A DNA stretch of 64,000 nt, from NCBI GenBank assembly GCA_009838625.1, contig VXRG01000061.1, positions 1 to 64,000 on the forward strand, read 5' to 3'. This DNA is from Caldilineaceae bacterium SB0664_bin_27 (GTDB lineage Bacteria > Chloroflexota > Anaerolineae > Caldilineales > Caldilineaceae). Below the pieces are notes generated by a model. The model saw nothing but the letters and a program-made list of their open reading frames with translations. It had not been told where the DNA came from and ran no database searches. Shown piece after piece: positions 33,512 to 51,889 of this stretch. The position numbers and the translations under genes were made by a program. The stretch's first letter is position 1, and each line of letters begins with the position of its first letter.

Positions 33512-35779
33512 CTAGTCTGGGGTCGCCACCCGTATCAACACCGTCCGCCGGCGCCAGAGCACCGTCCGATTCAGCAGCTGCCCCCGAATCCAACTCTCGA
33601 CCTGCTCCACTTCCTCAGGCTGCATCTGCTGGGCCAGCCGCTCAGCATAGGACTTGCGCTCGCCAGGAGCCGGGCCGAACCAGCGCCGGACATGCGCTTC
33701 AGTAATGCGCAGATCGGTGTCGGTGTCGATCCGCTCCAGCGAGACCCGCCCGGCTCGCGCCTCTGCAGGAAAGACGGCGGAGAGAGCTGCCTGCAAAGTC
33801 TCCTCATCCCAGTTGACCAGCCCATCCGTCGTATCGGCGTAAATCGACTCTTCGGCCGCAACCAGCCGCTCGGCCAGCTCCGGCTGAAGCAGAGAGCGGT
33901 CTCCTAAGTCGTATAATCTCTGCGTATGTCTCGGTATCGTCTCGGCCAGCGCAAGCCAGCCGCCCGCGGCCAGGTGTTCGGCCAGATGCGCCAGGGCAGC
34001 CCCTTTATCCACGCAGCCAAGCAGGGAGTTGCGTCCGATGATCGCATCAAAACGGACATCTTCCGTACCGAGCAGTTGCGCCGTCTCTTCCACCGTCCCT
34101 TGCAGCACAACCGGCCGCTCGACTTCGCCCAGATTTTGTGCCTGCTCCTGCAGCGCATGGCTGTCTGCCTCGCTGAACGCCAGTGCGTAGACACCGCCTT
34201 CGGGCGCGCGCCGCAGCGCCTCCCAGGTCAGCAGACCGCTGCCGGCGTTCACATCCAGTACGACACTGTGCCGCTCAAGGGGGCCGCCGTCCAGAATGCG
34301 GTCCCGCAACGCAGCCATCGCTTCCCCGGCCTGCGCAATCGTCCGCTGCAGCCACCGATCGCGGGCCGACCCGTCGGGTTCGAATGTCAGAATCTCCGGC
34401 GGCGCGCCAACGCCTTCCAGCATGGCGGCCAGCTGGGCTTCGCGTCGCTGGGTGACGGCGAGGCCGATCCGGGCCTCATATCCCTGGTCCGTCGGCTCGT
34501 AAAAGACCCTGCCCTGCAGCGCGCCGGGAAGATATTGCTGCGCCACCCAGTGGTCCCGGTAAGCGTGCGGATAGAGATAGCCGGCACCGTGCCCAAACCC
34601 TTCGCTGTCGCGGTTGCCGTCGCGCAGATGGCTGGGAACATCAGAATCAGGTTCATTGCTCACAGCCTCAAGCGCGTCGAAAAATGCCAGCACCGAATTG
34701 GACTTTTCCGCGGTCGCCAGATAGAGCGCGGCCTGAGCCAGGGGAAAGTTGCCTTCCGGGAGGCCGACGCGGTCAAAGGCCTCGGCGCAGGCGGTGACAA
34801 CCTGAACGGCTTGCGGGTCGGCCAGGCCCACATCCTCGCTCGCCAGGATCAACATGCGCCGAAAGATATAACGCGGCTCTTCACCGGCGTAAATCATCTT
34901 CGCCAGCCAGTACAGCGCTGCATCCGGGTCGCTGCCGCGCAGGCTCTTGATGAAAGCGCTGATCGTATCGAAGTGATAGTCGCCCTCCTTGTCATAGAGC
35001 ACGGCGCGGCGCTGAATCGACTCCTCAGCGATGGCGAGTGAAATCCGAACCGTCCCGTCCACATTTGCGTCAGTCGTCTCCACGGCCAGCTCCAGCGCGT
35101 TGAGCAGGGCGCGGGCATCGCCATTGGCGATAGAGACCAGATGCTCGGTCGCCTCGTCCTCGATTTCAACGCGCCGGCCGCCGTAGCCGCGCTGGGGTGT
35201 GTCGAGAGCGGTCTGCATAATCTGGCGCAGATGCTCTTCTGTCAGCGTCTTCAACTGAAAGATGCGGCTGCGGCTGACCAGGGCCTTGATGACCTCAAAA
35301 TAGGGATTCTCGGTCGTGGCGCCGATGAACGTAACCGTGCCATTCTCCACCCAGGGCAGAAGGGCATCCTGCTGGGCCTTGTTGAAACGATGCACCTCAT
35401 CGACAAAGAGAATTGTCCTCTGATCGTGAAGCGCCAACCTCTCCTGGGCCTCCGCCACCGTCGCGCGGATGTCCTTGACGCCGGCCAGTACAGCGTTAAG
35501 CGCGCTGAAATGGGCCGCCGTGGTGTTGGCGATCACCTGGGCCAAGGTCGTCTTGCCGGTGCCGGGGGGACCATAGAAGATGAGGCTGCTCAGCCGGTCC
35601 GCCTGAATCGCGCGCCGCAGGAGCCGGCCCGGGCCTACAATCGCTTCCTGGCCGATGAACTCATCGAGAGTGCGGGGCCGCATGCGCGCGGCCAGCGGCG
35701 CATTGGCATCGATCCGCTCCGCGCGTGCCTGCGCAAACAGATCCTCCGCTGGCTTCCTTCCTTGAGTATAGGTCACCAC
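33512..35779 (-). CDS. rarA: RarA-type AAA ATPase fused to a methyltransferase-like domain
   Basis: The first part is a replication-associated recombination ATPase (RarA/MgsA): [17 protein letters not shown], Walker [36 protein letters not shown] and the SRSRIFQL arginine finger, with the RarA tetramerisation region ([47 protein letters not shown]). A C-terminal half of about 280 residues follows that reads as a SAM methyltransferase ([19 protein letters not shown]). RarA acts at stalled forks. The GTG at 35779 follows AAAGG and matches the family start; the open frame runs further to 35995, but that part is a transposase scrap in frame by chance. Length from GTG is about 755. Confidence 0.9.
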
Positions 35780-35863
35780 AACGTAGCTGGCCTTTCGCTG
35801 GCGGGGCCCAGGCAGTTCGCCCGCGGTCCGCTCGCTGAATCCGGGAGAAGGGACACAAGAAGT

Positions 35864-35995
35864 TATTCGCAAAGGGTCAATCAGGGGTCGCCCGCCCGGT
35901 TTGGCCGCGGGAGTCAGACGCTGGCCAATAAACCACTGGCTGTCACTCAAATCTGTTGGGTATCGTTTGGTTTTCACATAGACTACGTATACCAC
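35864..35995 (-). mobile_element. IS5-family transposase N-terminal remnant
   Basis: A 37-residue stretch, KRYPTDLSDSQW followed by RLTPAAKPGGRPLIDPLRI, matches the start of IS5-type transposases (KRYPTDLSDAQW, then a PAKPGGRP element). It is continuous with the rarA frame but ends abruptly; no rest of the transposase, no clear terminal inverted repeats and no target duplications were seen. It is a scar of a past insertion at the edge of a decay zone. Because it precedes rarA in frame, automatic start calls may wrongly extend that gene. Confidence 0.7.
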
Positions 35996-37118: not shown

Positions 37119-37167
37119 TTGACATTTCAGATAGCAAGCAATATAGTTGCTTTCGGGTGCAACTATA
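37119..37167 (+). promoter_or_regulatory. Strong promoter overlapped by a palindromic operator
   Basis: TTGACA (37119-37124), exactly 17 bases, then TATAGT (37142-37147) is a near-perfect sigma-70 promoter. An inverted repeat, TATAGTTGC at 37142-37150 and GCAACTATA at 37159-37167 with an eight-base gap, overlaps the -10 and extends downstream, as expected for a repressor site. The intact PhyH gene starts about 150 bases downstream, after a long leader. Confidence 0.65.
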
Positions 37168-37314
37168 GCACGTATTGCCGTTGTGTCAGACGATTTTTCG
37201 ATCCCCGATTCAGACCAGAGATCCGTCCATTCTATCATTCGGGTCACGCGCCCGGGCCTCGATTCCACACGGCGCACTCGCGGCCTGGGGGACTCCACAC
37301 GTGAGGGAGGGAAG

Positions 37315-38130
37315 ATGGAGCTGACATGCAAGCAGAAACAGTTTTTCGAAACCTTCGGATACCTAGCTCTGCCCGGTCTGCTGGAGGATGAAATCGACTG
37401 GATCACCGAGGAGTTCGAGGCGGTCTTCCAAGGACGAAACGTTGTCCATGACGGCAGCAAACGCTCCTGCATCGTGCCCTTTATCGACCAGCGCGAACGG
37501 CTCAGCACTCTCCTGGATCATCCCAAGCTGGTGGGGTTGATTTCCGGCGTGCTGGGCGAGGATTTCAACTACCTGGGCGGCGATGGCAACTTCTACACCG
37601 GCGACACCCGCTGGCACAGCGACGGCTTCCATGAGGTGGGCAAGTTTCTCAAAGTCGCGCTCTATCTGGATGAGGTCGGCCAGGATAGCGGCTGCCTGCG
37701 CGTCATCCCCGGCACGCACCGGCAGGACATGTTCATGGGCTGGGAAGCCCGCCAGGCAAGTGAGTCCCTGGAGCGCTGGGGGATAGAGCAAAATGACGTG
37801 CCGGCGATGGCTCTGGAGACGCGGCCGGGCGACGTGGTCGCCTTCAATCACAACCTGATGCACGCCTCCTTTGGCGGCAGCATACGGCGTCGCATGTTCA
37901 CCCTCAACTGTTGCGCCCACTGCGGGACTGATCTGGAGATTGAGGAGCTGAAGCAATACATCGCCAACCACCACCGCTATTGGATCGATCAGATGCACTC
38001 GGATGTCATGCGCCGGACCGCGTCGCCCGCCCGTATGCGCCACCTGCAGCAGGTAATCGACAACGAGGGGCATCTCCCGGCACTGTCCGCCAAGGCGCGC
38101 ATGGAGATGTCCGAACCTGCGCATGGGTAG
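37315..38130 (+). CDS. Phytanoyl-CoA dioxygenase family protein
   Basis: A 271-residue Fe(II)/2-oxoglutarate-dependent dioxygenase. The iron triad is readable: HxD in RWHSDGF (H101, D103) and the distal His in NLMHASFGGS (H183), with arginines just after it for 2-oxoglutarate binding, and an IPGTHRQD segment in the double-stranded beta helix. PhyH proteins hydroxylate varied small molecules; the substrate is not evident. The ATG at 37315 is preceded by a GAGGGAGGG run and marks the family start; the same frame extends upstream to 37147 without homology. A strong promoter with a palindrome precedes it. It is only distantly similar to the PhyH proteins at 48836-51889. Confidence 0.88.
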   Translation: MELTCKQKQFFETFGYLALPGLLEDEIDWITEEFEAVFQGRNVVHDGSKRSCIVPFIDQRERLSTLLDHPKLVGLISGVLGEDFNYLGGDGNFYTGDTRWHSDGFHEVGKFLKVALYLDEVGQDSGCLRVIPGTHRQDMFMGWEARQASESLERWGIEQNDVPAMALETRPGDVVAFNHNLMHASFGGSIRRRMFTLNCCAHCGTDLEIEELKQYIANHHRYWIDQMHSDVMRRTASPARMRHLQQVIDNEGHLPALSAKARMEMSEPAHG

Positions 38131-38410: not shown

Positions 38411-38815
38411 TGTGGATAAACCGTCCACACATGGGAAAAAGGGGGATGACTGGGGATAACTTCGGGGATAACACTGAAAAAAGTGGATAAGGCCTGCTAA
38501 TAACCCTTGCTGTTTCTTTATCCCCATTTCCCGTGAGTTATGCTCACTCGGGCACAACTTTGGGATAATTTCTACATCTTGTGTAGCGCTTTTGTTCGGC
38601 GGATCACTCCATCCAAATCGTTCCTGCGCTTCCCTCTGAATTATCCCCACTAAAATCGCGCTCATCAGACTGCCCAGCCACTACATACAGTCACTCTTCA
38701 ATCGCATTACCACATATAGTTCCTTGGATTCACATATCCACATTTCCCCAGTCCCTACGAAGTCATACTAAAATAATAAAAAAAGATCATGAACAAAAAA
38801 GTGTTTAAAAAAGTC
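38411..38815. other. Candidate chromosomal replication origin (oriC)
   Basis: Seven DnaA-box-like 9-mers lie within 330 bases. On the minus strand: 38411-38419 (exact TTATCCACA), 38451-38459 and 38463-38471 (TTATCCCC plus A or G), and 38482-38490 (TTATCCACT). On the plus strand: 38518-38526 and 38641-38649 (both TTATCCCCA) and 38734-38742 (ATATCCACA). The two groups face each other. An AT-rich tract at about 38764-38815, with runs of A and T, follows on the right and could be the duplex unwinding element. No dnaA, dnaN or gyrB is in this window, so the identification rests on box density. No gene was recognised from 38131 to 38813. Confidence 0.65.
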
Positions 38816-39332
38816 ATTGGGACTCAAAAAGAATCGAATTTGGAGGAAGGTGAGGGAGTGGATTCGAATGACCGCCCCACCCGTCGACCACAACATACGG
38901 AAAAACGCGGATGCCAAAGTGAAAATGCTGTCCTGACTCGGGCAACTGGTTGAAGTAGCCAATCAACTCCCCCCGCTCCACACGCTGCCCTGCGTCGACA
39001 ACGAAGTTCTGAAAACGCGTGTAGAGAGACTCACCCCATGGGTGTGAGATGCGGATAAAGCGGCCGTATCGTTCGCCGTCATTACCGATTGTCGTGACAA
39101 TACCGCTGTCCGCGGCCAAGATTCTCTCGCTGGGGTGCAGTTCAAAATCGACGCCATTATGTCCGAGGAGAGCTTTGGTGCCCACAACGAAGCGGCGGTA
39201 GTGCTCCGGGTGGGCCCCCCACTCCTGAACGATACGCCGCTGGCCTTCAAATGGCGCCGCCAGGTAGACGCCCTCCGGTTCGTAACAACCGTTTTCAATT
39301 GCGCCTTGAAGAAAGTCGAAAGACATCGGCAC
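38814..39332 (-). CDS. M23-family peptidase-like protein
   Basis: A 172-residue protein with LytM/M23 features: GHNGVDF with H58 and D62, a conserved IRISHPWGESLYTRF beta strand, GQRVERGELIGYFN, and HFHFGIR with H138, which together form the zinc site of peptidoglycan endopeptidases. These enzymes cut cell-wall cross-bridges. No signal peptide or membrane anchor is visible at the chosen start, so either the protein is exported another way, acts inside the cell, or the start is misplaced. The C-terminal end lies against the AT-rich part of the putative origin. Confidence 0.8.
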   Translation of the reverse strand: MPMSFDFLQGAIENGCYEPEGVYLAAPFEGQRRIVQEWGAHPEHYRRFVVGTKALLGHNGVDFELHPSERILAADSGIVTTIGNDGERYGRFIRISHPWGESLYTRFQNFVVDAGQRVERGELIGYFNQLPESGQHFHFGIRVFPYVVVDGWGGHSNPLPHLPPNSILFESQ

Positions 39333-40189: not shown

Positions 40190-40948
40190 TCAGGGAGCCG
40201 CTTCCAGTTTGTCCGCCAGAAGGGAAGCAAGAAAGGTGCGCTCCTGGTCGCCGTCGAAGAGGATTTTGATCCGTTTATCCACCCCCTCCCTGCTCACTTC
40301 CGTAACTACACCATCACCGAAATGTGTGTGCACAATCCGCTGCCCGCAAGCGATCTGTGCCAGTGCATGCTGTTGCGATCGGGTCGGCTGCGGCGCTTTC
40401 ACTGCCGCCGCCTCTTGCAACGATGTCGCAATGTTCGCTTCCCGGTCCCGCCAGGCCTCCGCCAGAGTCGCAACCGTCTGCTCCGGATTCCTCGAAAGGG
40501 TGAAACGCAGTTGATTGGCGCTTTGGACCGCCGCGGCCAGCGCATCCATCGAGACGCCTTTCTCACGGTTGGTGCGGCCATCCAGGGCTGTCATTCTGCT
40601 GGCCCGGCTCAACACCATCAAGAATCGGTCCATCTGCTTGACCGGGTCTTCAAACGGGTCGATCACGGCCAGCTGAACGCCACGCAACCGGCACAGTTCA
40701 TCGCGTGTCTGGTCGCGCTGCTCCTCCTCCAAGATCTCCCAGTCCCCGCGGCGGCGCCCTTTGCCGGTCAGGCCGGAGAAGCGCACCGCGACACCGACCG
40801 ACTGGCACAGATAGTCCAGCTTGAGGCGGCGGCGGGTGGCAGGGTTGATCAACCAGTCCGGGCTGACATTGGACTGCAGGTCGGCGTCATCGAATACACG
40901 AGCGAAAATCTCGCGCCAGGCGTTCACCGATAGATACGCGGAGGACAT
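40190..40948 (-). CDS. Protein with UvrD-like C-terminal Tudor domain, function unknown
   Basis: A 252-residue protein. Residues about 200-252 (GQRIVHTHFGDGVVTEV, then KRIKILFDGDQERTFLASLLADKLE) match the Tudor-like domain at the end of PcrA/UvrD helicases, which binds RNA polymerase. The front half, with LKLDYLCQSVGVAVRFSG and VQLAVIDPFEDPVKQMDRFL, has the look of a nuclease or PD-(D/E)XK-like fold, but I cannot identify catalytic residues with confidence. The protein has no helicase motifs, so it is not a shortened UvrD. It may couple a DNA- or RNA-acting domain to transcription. Neighbours (murJ, FmdB) give no clue. Confidence 0.6.
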   Translation of the reverse strand: MSSAYLSVNAWREIFARVFDDADLQSNVSPDWLINPATRRRLKLDYLCQSVGVAVRFSGLTGKGRRRGDWEILEEEQRDQTRDELCRLRGVQLAVIDPFEDPVKQMDRFLMVLSRASRMTALDGRTNREKGVSMDALAAAVQSANQLRFTLSRNPEQTVATLAEAWRDREANIATSLQEAAAVKAPQPTRSQQHALAQIACGQRIVHTHFGDGVVTEVSREGVDKRIKILFDGDQERTFLASLLADKLEAAP

Positions 40949-41105: not shown

Positions 41106-42761
41106 ATGACTACACCGGATAGCCGCAACTCAGATGCCCGGAACAACTATGGAGGCGTGCGGGCGCTGGATAGCAAGGCGATCGCCGGTGCCGCGATGCT
41201 GGTCATGTTGCTGTTCATTCTCAGCCGCGGTACGGGCCTGCTGCGCGAGATGATCATCGGTGCCCGCTTCGGCACCGCGGCCGACCTGGATGCCTATCTG
41301 GCCGCCTTCCGCATCCCGGACCTGCTCTTTCAACTGGTGGCTGGCGGCGCACTGGGCAGCGCCTTCATCCCCACCTTCGCCGCGGCCTGGACAGAGGACG
41401 GCCAGCAGCAGGCGTGGCTGCTCTTCAGCCGCGTCCTGAACCTGTTGACCCTCTTCCTCGTCCTCCTGTGCGGGCTGGCGATGCTCTTCGCCGAACCCCT
41501 CGTCGCCGGCGTGATCGCGCCGGGCTTCCCGGTCGAGCAGCAGAAACTGACCGCCTCTCTGATGCGCTGGATGCTGGCAAGTACGGTCGTCTTCGGCGCC
41601 AGCGGCCTGATCATGGGCGCACTCAACGCGGTGCAGCATTTCCTGCTGCCGGCCGTCGCGCCCGTGCTTTACAATTGCGCCATCATAACCGGCGCCTGGC
41701 TGCTCGCGCCGGTTATGGGCATTCACGGCCTGGTGATCGGCGTGGCCGCCGGCGCCGTGCTGCACCTGCTTGTGCAACTGCCGGCGCTTCTGCGGCAGAA
41801 GGTGCGCTACCGCTTCAGCTTCCGTATTGGCGACGCACAAGTACGGGAAGTGGCGCGGCTGATGGGGCCTCGCGTGCTGGGGTTACTCTTTGTCCAGCTC
41901 AACTTTCTCGTCAACACGATTCTGGCCAGCGGTCTGCCGGACGGCAGTCTCAGCGCCCTCAACTACGCTTGGCTGCTGATGCTCCTGCCGCAGGGTATCT
42001 TTGCCCAGGCCGTGGCAACCGTCGCCTTTCCCACCTTCTCGGCGCAGGTTGCCTCCGGCAACCGCGCCCAGCTTCTGGAAACGCTCTCCCGCCTGCTGCG
42101 GCTGGTCCTCTTCCTCTCGATACCGGCAGCGTTCTTGCTCTACGTTCTTGACGAGCCATTCATCGAGCTTCTCTTCCAGCGGGGCCGCTTCGACGTTGCC
42201 AGCACCCAAGCCGTCGCCTACGCTCTGCGCTTCTATGCCCTCGGGCTGGTGGCCCATGCCGTCGTCGAGATCGTGGTGCGAGTCTTCTACGCACTCCACG
42301 ACACAGCAACGCCGGTGGTTGCCGGCGTTGCCACCATGGCGCTCAACATTCTCCTCAGCCTGGCCTTGATTGGCCGCTTGAGCTTTGGCGGCCTCGCCCT
42401 GGCTAACAGCATCGCCACCGCGCTGGAGATGCTCGTCCTGCTGATCCAGCTGGCGCGTAAAGTGCGCGCACCCAATCAGGAACCAGGGCACACGACGACC
42501 CTGCAAGGCCTGCCCGTGCGCCAGCTGCTGCAGAGCGGCGCTCGCTCACTGCTCGCGTCCGCTATCATGGCCGGCGCACTCCTCTTTGGTCTGGAACTTC
42601 TCCCCGCCGGCAACGCCGTATTCGGGATTCCCGCCGGCTGGGTCGCGGCTGTCGCCGGGGCCGGGCTTGGCGTACTAATCTATGCGCTGGCCAGCTATCT
42701 TCTGGGCGGCGCCGAGATCCGCCAGCTGGCGGCCCTGGCGCGCAGACGCGCGCAAACGTAG
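41106..42761 (+). CDS. murJ: Lipid II flippase MurJ
   Basis: A 551-residue MviN/MurJ family membrane protein with about 14 helices, which moves lipid II to the outer face of the membrane during peptidoglycan synthesis. Characteristic segments include LLREMIIGARFGTAADLDAYLAA, FRIPDLLFQLVAGGALGSAFIP, a central proline/Gly-rich helix block, LLPQGIFAQAVATVAFPTFS and VVRVFYALHDTATPV. The fold and length fit the family well. A few extra N-terminal residues precede the first helix. The closest upstream sequence is a copy of the ACTGACC repeat. With WecA-like and LysM proteins elsewhere in the window it indicates a peptidoglycan-containing wall. Confidence 0.93.
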   Translation: MTTPDSRNSDARNNYGGVRALDSKAIAGAAMLVMLLFILSRGTGLLREMIIGARFGTAADLDAYLAAFRIPDLLFQLVAGGALGSAFIPTFAAAWTEDGQQQAWLLFSRVLNLLTLFLVLLCGLAMLFAEPLVAGVIAPGFPVEQQKLTASLMRWMLASTVVFGASGLIMGALNAVQHFLLPAVAPVLYNCAIITGAWLLAPVMGIHGLVIGVAAGAVLHLLVQLPALLRQKVRYRFSFRIGDAQVREVARLMGPRVLGLLFVQLNFLVNTILASGLPDGSLSALNYAWLLMLLPQGIFAQAVATVAFPTFSAQVASGNRAQLLETLSRLLRLVLFLSIPAAFLLYVLDEPFIELLFQRGRFDVASTQAVAYALRFYALGLVAHAVVEIVVRVFYALHDTATPVVAGVATMALNILLSLALIGRLSFGGLALANSIATALEMLVLLIQLARKVRAPNQEPGHTTTLQGLPVRQLLQSGARSLLASAIMAGALLFGLELLPAGNAVFGIPAGWVAAVAGAGLGVLIYALASYLLGGAEIRQLAALARRRAQT

Positions 42762-50057: not shown

Positions 50058-50969
50058 ATGATCCACGACAAAACCAATCACACCTGCGACGGCGAACCGT
50101 CCCTGACCGACTCGCAGGTGCTCGAATTCTGTCGCGAAGGACATCTGCTGCTGAAGGGCGTCGTTCCCGAGGAAATCAACCGCCGCACCTGCGACTATCT
50201 CGAAGGCAAGCTCCCGGCCAACCCCAGCTACATTCCCGACGGCCTCACCGAAGCCGACCTCGAACGCATCCGCGCCTCCCACGAACCGAGCACCATCTTC
50301 CTCGAAGACTGGTTCGTCCAGAACGTCCTGCTCAACCCCCATGTCGTCGGCGTCATGCGCTCGCTACTGGGCCGTAGCTTCGGCCTGCCGGTCCTCGCCA
50401 GCCATCACCACGTCCAGTGCCCCATGCCCGCGCAGGGCTGGCATCACGACGCTGACCACGTCTTCGGCCCCGAGCTCAACTTCGTCGAGGTCTTCTACTT
50501 TCCCCAGGATACTCCCGTCGAGCTCGGCCCGACCGAGCTCGTGCCCGGCTCCCACATCATGCCCACCAAGCGCCCCAACGACGAGGGCGGCCTTTTCGCC
50601 GACGGCCCCGCCGGCACCATCGGCATTCACCACCAGAGCATCCTCCACCGCCGCGGCCTCTCCACCGCCAAGGGCACGCGCCACATGCTCAAATACAACT
50701 ACTGGCGCACTGCCCCGCCCCAGAGAGATTGGATCACCGAGCCCGATTTCGACTTCCAGGGCGCCTACTACGGCGGCCATAACCAGGCCCGCTACGTCGC
50801 CCACATGTTTTACTGGCTCTGCGGCAAGGGAGAAGAATACCGCATCATCGGCGGCCAGGCCTGGCCGTGGACCAGTCCCAACCAGATCGGCCCCTCCTAC
50901 GGTTTCGGCAGCACCAACGGCTACCAACCCGACTGGCGCAAACATAACCAGGACGGCTACGCCGTCTGA
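50058..50969 (+). CDS. Phytanoyl-CoA dioxygenase family protein, tandem copy 1
   Basis: A 303-residue Fe(II)/2-oxoglutarate oxygenase. Iron ligands are visible in QGWHHDADHVF (H129, D131) and SILHRRGLST (H197), with LVPGSHIMPTKRP in the core and NYWRTAPPQRDWITEPDFDF near the C-terminus. CCAGGAGAGC lies upstream of the ATG. It is nearly identical in length and about 87% identical by eye to the next gene, so this is a recent tandem duplication. No transporter is linked directly. Substrate unknown; the relatives in this subfamily are environmental proteins with no set role. Confidence 0.9.
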   Translation: MIHDKTNHTCDGEPSLTDSQVLEFCREGHLLLKGVVPEEINRRTCDYLEGKLPANPSYIPDGLTEADLERIRASHEPSTIFLEDWFVQNVLLNPHVVGVMRSLLGRSFGLPVLASHHHVQCPMPAQGWHHDADHVFGPELNFVEVFYFPQDTPVELGPTELVPGSHIMPTKRPNDEGGLFADGPAGTIGIHHQSILHRRGLSTAKGTRHMLKYNYWRTAPPQRDWITEPDFDFQGAYYGGHNQARYVAHMFYWLCGKGEEYRIIGGQAWPWTSPNQIGPSYGFGSTNGYQPDWRKHNQDGYAV

Positions 50970-50977
50970 GCAAAGAC

Positions 50978-51889
50978 ATGATCCACGACAAAGCCAATCA
51001 CACTTTCGACGGCGAGCCGACGCTAACCGACTCGCAGGTGCTCGAATTCTGCCGCGAAGGCCATCTTCTGCTGCGCGGTGTCGTCCCCGACGAGATCAAC
51101 CGCCGTACCTGCGACTTTCTCGAAGGCAAAATCCCCGCCAACCCCAGCTACATCCCCGACGGCCTGACCGAAGCTGACCTCGAGCGCATGCGCTTCTCCA
51201 TCGCGCCCAGCTCCATCTTCCTTGAGGACTGGTTTATGGAGCACGTCCTGCTCAATCCACAGGTGGTCGGCATCATGCGCTCGCTGCTGGGCCGTAACGT
51301 CGGCCTGCCCGTCCTCGCCAGCCACCACCTTGCTGAATGTCCCATGCCCGCGCAGCACTGGCATAACGACGCCGACCACGTCTTCGGCCCCGAGCTCAAC
51401 TTCGTCGAGCTCTTCTATTTCCCCCAGGACACCCCTGTCGAGCTCGGGCCGACCGAACTGGTGCCCGGCTCCCACATCATGCCCACCAAGCGCCCCGACG
51501 ACGAGGGCGGCGTCTTCGCCGACGGCCCCGCTGGCACCATCGGCGTCCATCACCAGAGCATCCTGCACCGCCGCGGCCTCTCCACCGCCACGGGGACCCG
51601 CCACATGCTCAAATACAACTACTGGCGCACCACGCCTCCGCAGCGCGACTGGATCACCGAGCCCGACTTCGACTTCCAGCGCGTCTACTACGGCGGCCAC
51701 AATCAGGCCCGTTACGTCGCCCACATGTTTTACTGGCTCTGCGGCAAGGGAGAAGAGTACCGCATCATCGGCGGCCAGGCCTGGCCCGCGACCCACCCCA
51801 ACCAGATCGGCCCCTCCTACGGCTTCGCCAGCGAGCGCGGTTACAAACCCGACTGGCGCAAGCAAAACCAGGACGGCTACGCCTCTTAA
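50978..51889 (+). CDS. Phytanoyl-CoA dioxygenase family protein, tandem copy 2
   Basis: A 303-residue paralogue of the previous gene, starting eight bases after its stop. The iron ligands are kept (WHNDADHVF with H129 and D131; SILHRRGLST with H197). Differences cluster at residues 71-76 (IRASHE versus MRFSIA), 117-130 (HHVQCPMPAQGWHH versus HLAECPMPAQHWHN) and near the C-terminus. Residues 117-130 lie next to the iron site and could shape substrate choice. Retained reading frames and motifs argue both copies are functional. Confidence 0.9.
   Translation: MIHDKANHTFDGEPTLTDSQVLEFCREGHLLLRGVVPDEINRRTCDFLEGKIPANPSYIPDGLTEADLERMRFSIAPSSIFLEDWFMEHVLLNPQVVGIMRSLLGRNVGLPVLASHHLAECPMPAQHWHNDADHVFGPELNFVELFYFPQDTPVELGPTELVPGSHIMPTKRPDDEGGVFADGPAGTIGVHHQSILHRRGLSTATGTRHMLKYNYWRTTPPQRDWITEPDFDFQRVYYGGHNQARYVAHMFYWLCGKGEEYRIIGGQAWPATHPNQIGPSYGFASERGYKPDWRKQNQDGYAS

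Follow-up and report, generated by a model that had tools for sequence, protein, structure and literature searches.

The DNA analysed here (the window) consists of bases 1-64000 of a 65,051-bp contig (C108), which belongs to a draft genome of 5.35 Mb in 188 contigs. Between the ORF of an M23 peptidase and that of a PhyH-family protein, the window contains a non-coding stretch with nine DnaA-box-like 9-mers (38411-38742), followed by an A/T-rich tract. The features of the locus are listed below, with the box sequences given as read on the stated strand; the boxes were assigned by a scan and by alignment, and the neighbouring genes by gene order in relatives.

33512..35995, minus strand: MgsA/RarA-type AAA+ ATPase, conserved neighbour on the other side
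37147..38130, plus strand: PhyH-family gene, adjacent in some relatives only and outside the candidate origin
38411..38419, minus strand: DnaA box, exact TTATCCACA, kept or with one change in most relatives
38451..38459, minus strand: DnaA-box-like TTATCCCCA, third box of a conserved triplet
38463..38471, minus strand: DnaA-box-like TTATCCCCG, second box of the triplet
38482..38490, minus strand: DnaA-box-like TTATCCACT with a T run after it, first box of the triplet
38518..38526, plus strand: DnaA-box-like TTATCCCCA, in the opposite orientation
38538..38546, plus strand: DnaA-box-like TTATGCTCA, with an ATAA core invariant in the genus
38560..38568, minus strand: weak DnaA-box-like TTATCCCAA, less conserved in the alignment
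38641..38649, plus strand: DnaA-box-like TTATCCCCA, variable among relatives
38734..38742, plus strand: DnaA-box-like ATATCCACA, adjoining the presumed unwinding element
38743..38772, plus strand: block TTTCCCCAGTCCCTACGAAGTCATACTAAA, conserved in a 16-genome alignment, linking the last box with the A/T tract
38759..38818, no strand: presumed DNA-unwinding element, the least stable 60-mer of the window
38814..39332, minus strand: M23 peptidase gene, a syntenic neighbour across Caldilineaceae, whose 3' end abuts the candidate origin
40322..40933, plus strand: hypothetical protein, conserved neighbour
41106..42761, plus strand: MurJ, conserved neighbour

Box cluster, A/T tract and neighbouring genes

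An earlier note, made from the letters of this DNA, had reported seven DnaA-box-like 9-mers at the locus, one of them exact, at a density far above chance. Nine were found in our scan, and seven of these lie inside 350 bp with no more than one mismatch to TTATNCACA. The dominant boxes are TTATCCCCA and TTATCCACT, while the perfect TTATNCACA occurs a single time in the 64-kb window, as the exact box at 38411. The density did prove to be far above chance: elsewhere in the window, 350-bp stretches without overlap to the locus had at most two boxes at this threshold; when the window was simulated 300 times with an order-1 model, no 350-bp stretch had more than four (the best stretch having 1.9 on average); and none of 20,000 simulated 350-mers with the AT-rich composition of the locus itself reached seven. 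The arrangement in two facing groups, also described in the note, was recognized as a minus-strand group followed by a plus-strand group, with the exception of the minus-strand box at 38560, which breaks the pattern. A search of the region 37-40 kb of the window against Rfam returned no match.

The stability of each 60-mer was calculated as nearest-neighbour energy. The least stable one in the window, 38759-38818, coincides with the tract of A/T runs that had been noticed beside the boxes, and in all 11 relatives examined the weakest 60-mer of the locus lay on this same side of the boxes. Across the 16 aligned copies, the conserved block TTTAGTATGACTTCGTAGGGACTGGGGAAATGGGGATATG runs into a variable T-rich tract. 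Inspection by eye of positions 38743-38790 for the DnaA-trio motif gave isolated trios and no convincing run.

Relatives keep the order M23, hypothetical protein, MurJ and Zn-peptidase to one side of the locus and MgsA/RarA to the other. PhyH, a variable insertion, is an incidental neighbour; the earlier placement of an origin between PhyH and M23 is correct as a position in this window, but does not extend to the relatives in which PhyH is not adjacent. Some further observations were made on the genes of the window. The MgsA/RarA AAA+ protein has a C-terminal methyltransferase-like domain (residues ~557-685), the H...D and HxH-type positions of the M23 peptidase are retained throughout the family, and the plus strand at 50058-51889 contains two tandem paralogous ORFs of 303 aa, both matching the same single gene in relatives.

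Conservation of the locus in Caldilineaceae

Among named relatives, the nearest are MAGs from sponges and the environment that carry the label Caldilineaceae (phylum Chloroflexota). By DNA search, the stretch was present in 15 of the 16 same-genus genomes at 66-84% identity, and one member of the genus (G010) had no copy detectable by this search. The near-invariant parts of the 16-copy alignment are TTATCCAC, TTATCCCC (twice), GGGGATA and the ATAA core, and the remaining non-coding DNA diverges. TTATCCAC, which is the box at 38482..38490 with its T run, is invariant in the 16 aligned genomes and is also found in other genera. Of the 17 genus members, 16 carry exactly one copy of the triplet TTATCCNC-N8..14-TTATCCNC-N2..6-TTATCCNC, and a reversed control pattern gave zero matches in those genomes.

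Across the family, a looser form of the triplet was present in 9 of the 17 genera. Other Caldilineaceae contigs recovered with an M23-alignment query, some of them labelled Litorilinea aerophila, have 3-9 boxes at 0-800 bp downstream of M23, and the TTATCCACT/TTATCCCCA core was also observed in the closer non-genus M23 contigs. No box cluster was found downstream of several more distant M23 homologues (L250-L253). Conservation of the boxes in relatives, which had been proposed as a check of the origin, was strong, both within the genus and in other genera. That DnaA-box-like words had clustered by chance in AT-rich intergenic DNA might be argued from the one or two mismatches of several boxes and from the stretch being AT-richer than the genome. 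Such a cluster is already refuted by the conservation of box positions while the surrounding non-coding DNA diverges, and its density was unmatched in the simulated windows and 350-mers; we give this explanation practically no credit.

Two other observations concern the distribution of these elements. In G002, a member of the genus, the M23 gene (L221, on contig C14) and the box cluster (on C88) are on different contigs, and the usual linkage of M23 and origin appears to be broken. Triple-box sites by carA (L202) and by GNAT genes (L205, L206) were rejected as orthologous origins, being without the full arrangement.

Position on the chromosome and strand composition

The position of the locus was evaluated in three relatives assembled as a single contig, G012 (5.40 Mb), G016 (5.95 Mb) and G004 (5.06 Mb). 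As the earlier note had proposed, there is no dnaA beside the locus: it is 214, 232 and 112 kb away in G012, G016 and G004, respectively, and on another contig (C8) in the source draft genome. A dnaA gene away from the origin is known in other bacteria. The DnaA of the source genome has all of the domains DnaA_N, Bac_DnaA and Bac_DnaA_C (N-terminal, AAA+ and helix-turn-helix box-binding domains), so that ordinary DnaA-dependent initiation is expected. An origin at dnaA itself was rejected, because no more than 2-3 boxes are grouped at the dnaA loci and the skew of G012 does not switch at that gene. Elsewhere (L002:1084-2595; G000:C51, ~76.3-77.9 kb), we observed a protein of 503 aa that has an N-terminus resembling a zinc finger and, in tandem, two AAA+ domains of the IstB/DnaC type (two separate stretches match Pfam IstB_IS21), with homologous places in the other genus members; from its sequence, it looks like a tandem-duplicated helicase loader.

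Segments that have switched sides between G012 and G016 are mirrored around the locus. A regression on sampled stretches, with one weak, non-fitting pair of 70% identity excluded, gave r -0.9998, an intercept of -105 kb and a slope of -1.115, close to the ratio of the genome sizes (1.10). Such mirror images are classically produced by inversions that are symmetric around the replication axis. Given the intercept, the locus sits on the symmetry axis of the chromosome, the fitted axis passing ~50 kb from it. In the three closed genomes, parS-like 16-mer palindromes were found at 0.24-0.49 Mb from the locus, and in a 1.16-Mb contig of another genus (G069) a parS-like site is ~32 kb from the M23 box cluster. 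All six rRNA operons of the closed genomes are within 0.7 Mb of the locus, and four of the six are co-directional with replication from it. The fusA-tuf (str) operon is head-on to such replication in all three closed genomes, which counts against an origin here. Gene-strand bias and tRNA orientation in the sampled genomes showed no clear bias in either direction (10 of 23 sampled tRNAs were co-directional). A search for dif (ATAANNNNNNTTATGTTAA, one mismatch allowed) in six genomes gave no credible site, and none at the opposite pole.

GC skew was sampled in 20-kb stretches of the closed relatives, so that the skew and divergence results refer to the genomes of relatives, with ~15% of two chromosomes covered. 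In G012 and G016, skew is negative to the right of the locus and positive to its left, with a size of ~0.1 on each side, which places the locus near the maximum, instead of the minimum, of the cumulative GC skew. The switch is gradual, with a zero crossing at about +85 kb in G012 and +20-30 kb in G016 and a dip to the left; blurred over ~100 kb, it does not allow skew alone to place the origin inside this interval. The opposite switch, a minimum, is sharp, diametrically opposite and at the same homologous place in both genomes (~2.728 Mb in G012 and ~1.984 Mb in G016). G004 has weak GC skew only, and a strand-biased 9-mer used as a skew proxy in part of G069, of a second genus, was uninformative. 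Of the two skew tests suggested in the note, the switch expected at the locus was found near it in G012 and G016 with a sign opposite to the usual one, and no skew minimum was found near dnaA, which in G012 is inside strongly positive skew. The window itself (64 kb) has no skew switch at the locus, consistent with G012, in which the switch is displaced.

At four-fold sites, genes leading from the locus had a skew of -0.28 and -0.23, and lagging genes +0.08 and +0.09, in the two genomes (p ~1e-52 and ~1e-54), the ORFs behind the gene-orientation, four-fold-site and divergence figures being mechanical and some of them spurious, which adds noise. Because the signal is seen at four-fold sites and also in non-coding DNA, the skew is linked to replication and is not an effect of gene orientation.

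Which of the two poles is the origin was indicated by gradients along the chromosome. In bacterial chromosomes, substitution rates generally increase and G+C decreases towards the terminus. Between G012 and G016, the median four-fold-site divergence increased from 0.08 at less than 100 kb from the locus to 0.56 beyond 2.5 Mb (rho 0.69), a growth of ~seven-fold in synonymous divergence, and among genes of 80-92% protein identity it was 0.27 near and 0.56 far. G+C drops with distance from the locus in both genomes (rho -0.52 and -0.48). The near-to-far synonymous gradient of this pair (near being within 400 kb) is, to our knowledge, steeper than in other bacteria, and the low divergence close to the locus may be due in part to recombination or horizontal exchange.

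These gradients bear on a reading in which the locus is near the terminus, the skew has normal polarity, the origin is at the opposite minimum given above and the boxes have another role. The skew convention would then be the normal one, fusA-tuf would become co-directional, and the origin would be at the sharp switch instead of the blurred one. The opposite pole, however, is AT-rich, evolves fastest at synonymous sites and is without a DnaA-box cluster (no 500-bp stretch had more than three boxes when up to one mismatch was allowed), while dnaA, parS and all rRNA operons are on the side of the candidate, which holds all parts of an oriC. Five independent signals, namely the divergence and G+C gradients, parS, the rRNA operons and the missing box cluster opposite, point to the pole of the locus as that of the origin; on these grounds the terminus was rejected as an explanation, and we regard it as improbable.

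At the sharp minimum itself, both genomes (L209:8300-9100, at ~2.728 Mb in G012, and L211:17400-18200) have a conserved tRNA-Glu and a terminator-like hairpin upstream of a purine-synthesis operon. In G012, the conserved element consists of the tRNA-Glu with the hairpin after it; no dif was recognized, and the spot is possibly a termination region.

The candidate oriC and its implications

Taken as the origin, the locus makes the leading strand C-rich and puts the origin near the maximum of the cumulative GC skew. We consider that 38411-38818 is very probably the oriC of the Caldilineaceae chromosome, with a C-rich leading strand in the closed genomes of the genus that have clear skew, a reading of sequence data that supports the replication origin proposed in the earlier note. 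That the genus combines a conserved, M23-linked oriC with a strongly inverted skew (a C-rich leading strand, ~-0.25 at the four-fold sites of leading genes) is probable, and its GC skew appears to be reversed relative to the usual excess of G over C. Counted against the oriC were the reversed sign and blurred switch of the skew, the head-on fusA-tuf operon, the mixed rRNA orientation, the missing dif, the lack of a detectable copy in G010 and of a convincing DnaA-trio run. A position at the minimum of the cumulative GC skew is a usual correlate of an origin and not a mechanistic requirement, and its failure does not exclude an oriC.

With the skew switch resolved only to ~100-200 kb, and with 2-3 boxes at the dnaA loci, the cluster might instead serve for DnaA titration or regulation (datA-like or DBC-like), the true oriC being elsewhere within ~200 kb, for example upstream of dnaA. 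Yet the dnaA locus has far fewer boxes than the candidate and in G012 is 214 kb off, in strongly skewed DNA, whereas at the candidate ordered boxes lie next to the 60-mer of the window that melts most easily, in a position kept among relatives, and the box triplet is single-copy in most genomes. A titration cluster seems to us quite improbable, slightly more so than a terminus. For the candidate oriC, we propose that DnaA, encoded elsewhere and with normal domains, would bind the two facing arrays of TTATCCMCA-type boxes, and that its filament would be directed through 38743-38772 into the A/T-rich element. Melting of 38759-38818 would then allow the helicase to be loaded and two forks to depart.

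As in the E. coli oriC, located between gidA and mioC and away from dnaA (PMC10225481), ordered DnaA boxes lie by an easily melted A/T element in an intergenic stretch not beside dnaA. The differences are the neighbours (M23/MurJ and MgsA/RarA), the dominance of the TTATCCCCA and TTATCCACT boxes and a skew polarity that appears reversed. In Thermomicrobium roseum, also of the Chloroflexota, dnaA, dnaN, gyrA, gyrB and gidA are dispersed, so dnaA does not mark the origin, which was placed there by GC-skew transitions alone (PMC2615216). The candidate origin of the Caldilineaceae genus is likewise unmarked by dnaA, but here the evidence from boxes, synteny, divergence and parS fixes the candidate independently and disagrees with the usual skew sign. 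No experimentally mapped origin of the Chloroflexota was found in the open literature.

Among 185 chromosomes, the leading-strand G excess lay between about -0.04 and 0.24, and was significantly negative in five, from two Actinobacteria and three epsilon-Proteobacteria (PMC2031905). The genus would share a C-rich leading strand with these five, and its leading-strand skew of ~-0.1, from sampled replichores of two genomes and set against whole-chromosome values, would fall outside the range.

A DnaA-box origin at the skew maximum breaks the assumption of a G-rich leading strand and offers a test case for the cause of strand asymmetry. Nearly all automatic origin assignment makes this assumption. 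If the candidate is the true origin, predictors based on skew, including Ori-Finder 2022, which scores candidates by how far they lie from the GC-disparity minimum (PMC10225481), would assign the origin to the terminus, and some of the Chloroflexota origin annotations set from skew may be misplaced. The classification of leading and lagging genes, analyses of head-on genes and peak-to-trough estimates of replication rate in sponge-associated and environmental bacteria would be affected as well. For draft genomes of the Caldilineaceae, the M23-linked box triplet would be a practical marker for placing oriC.
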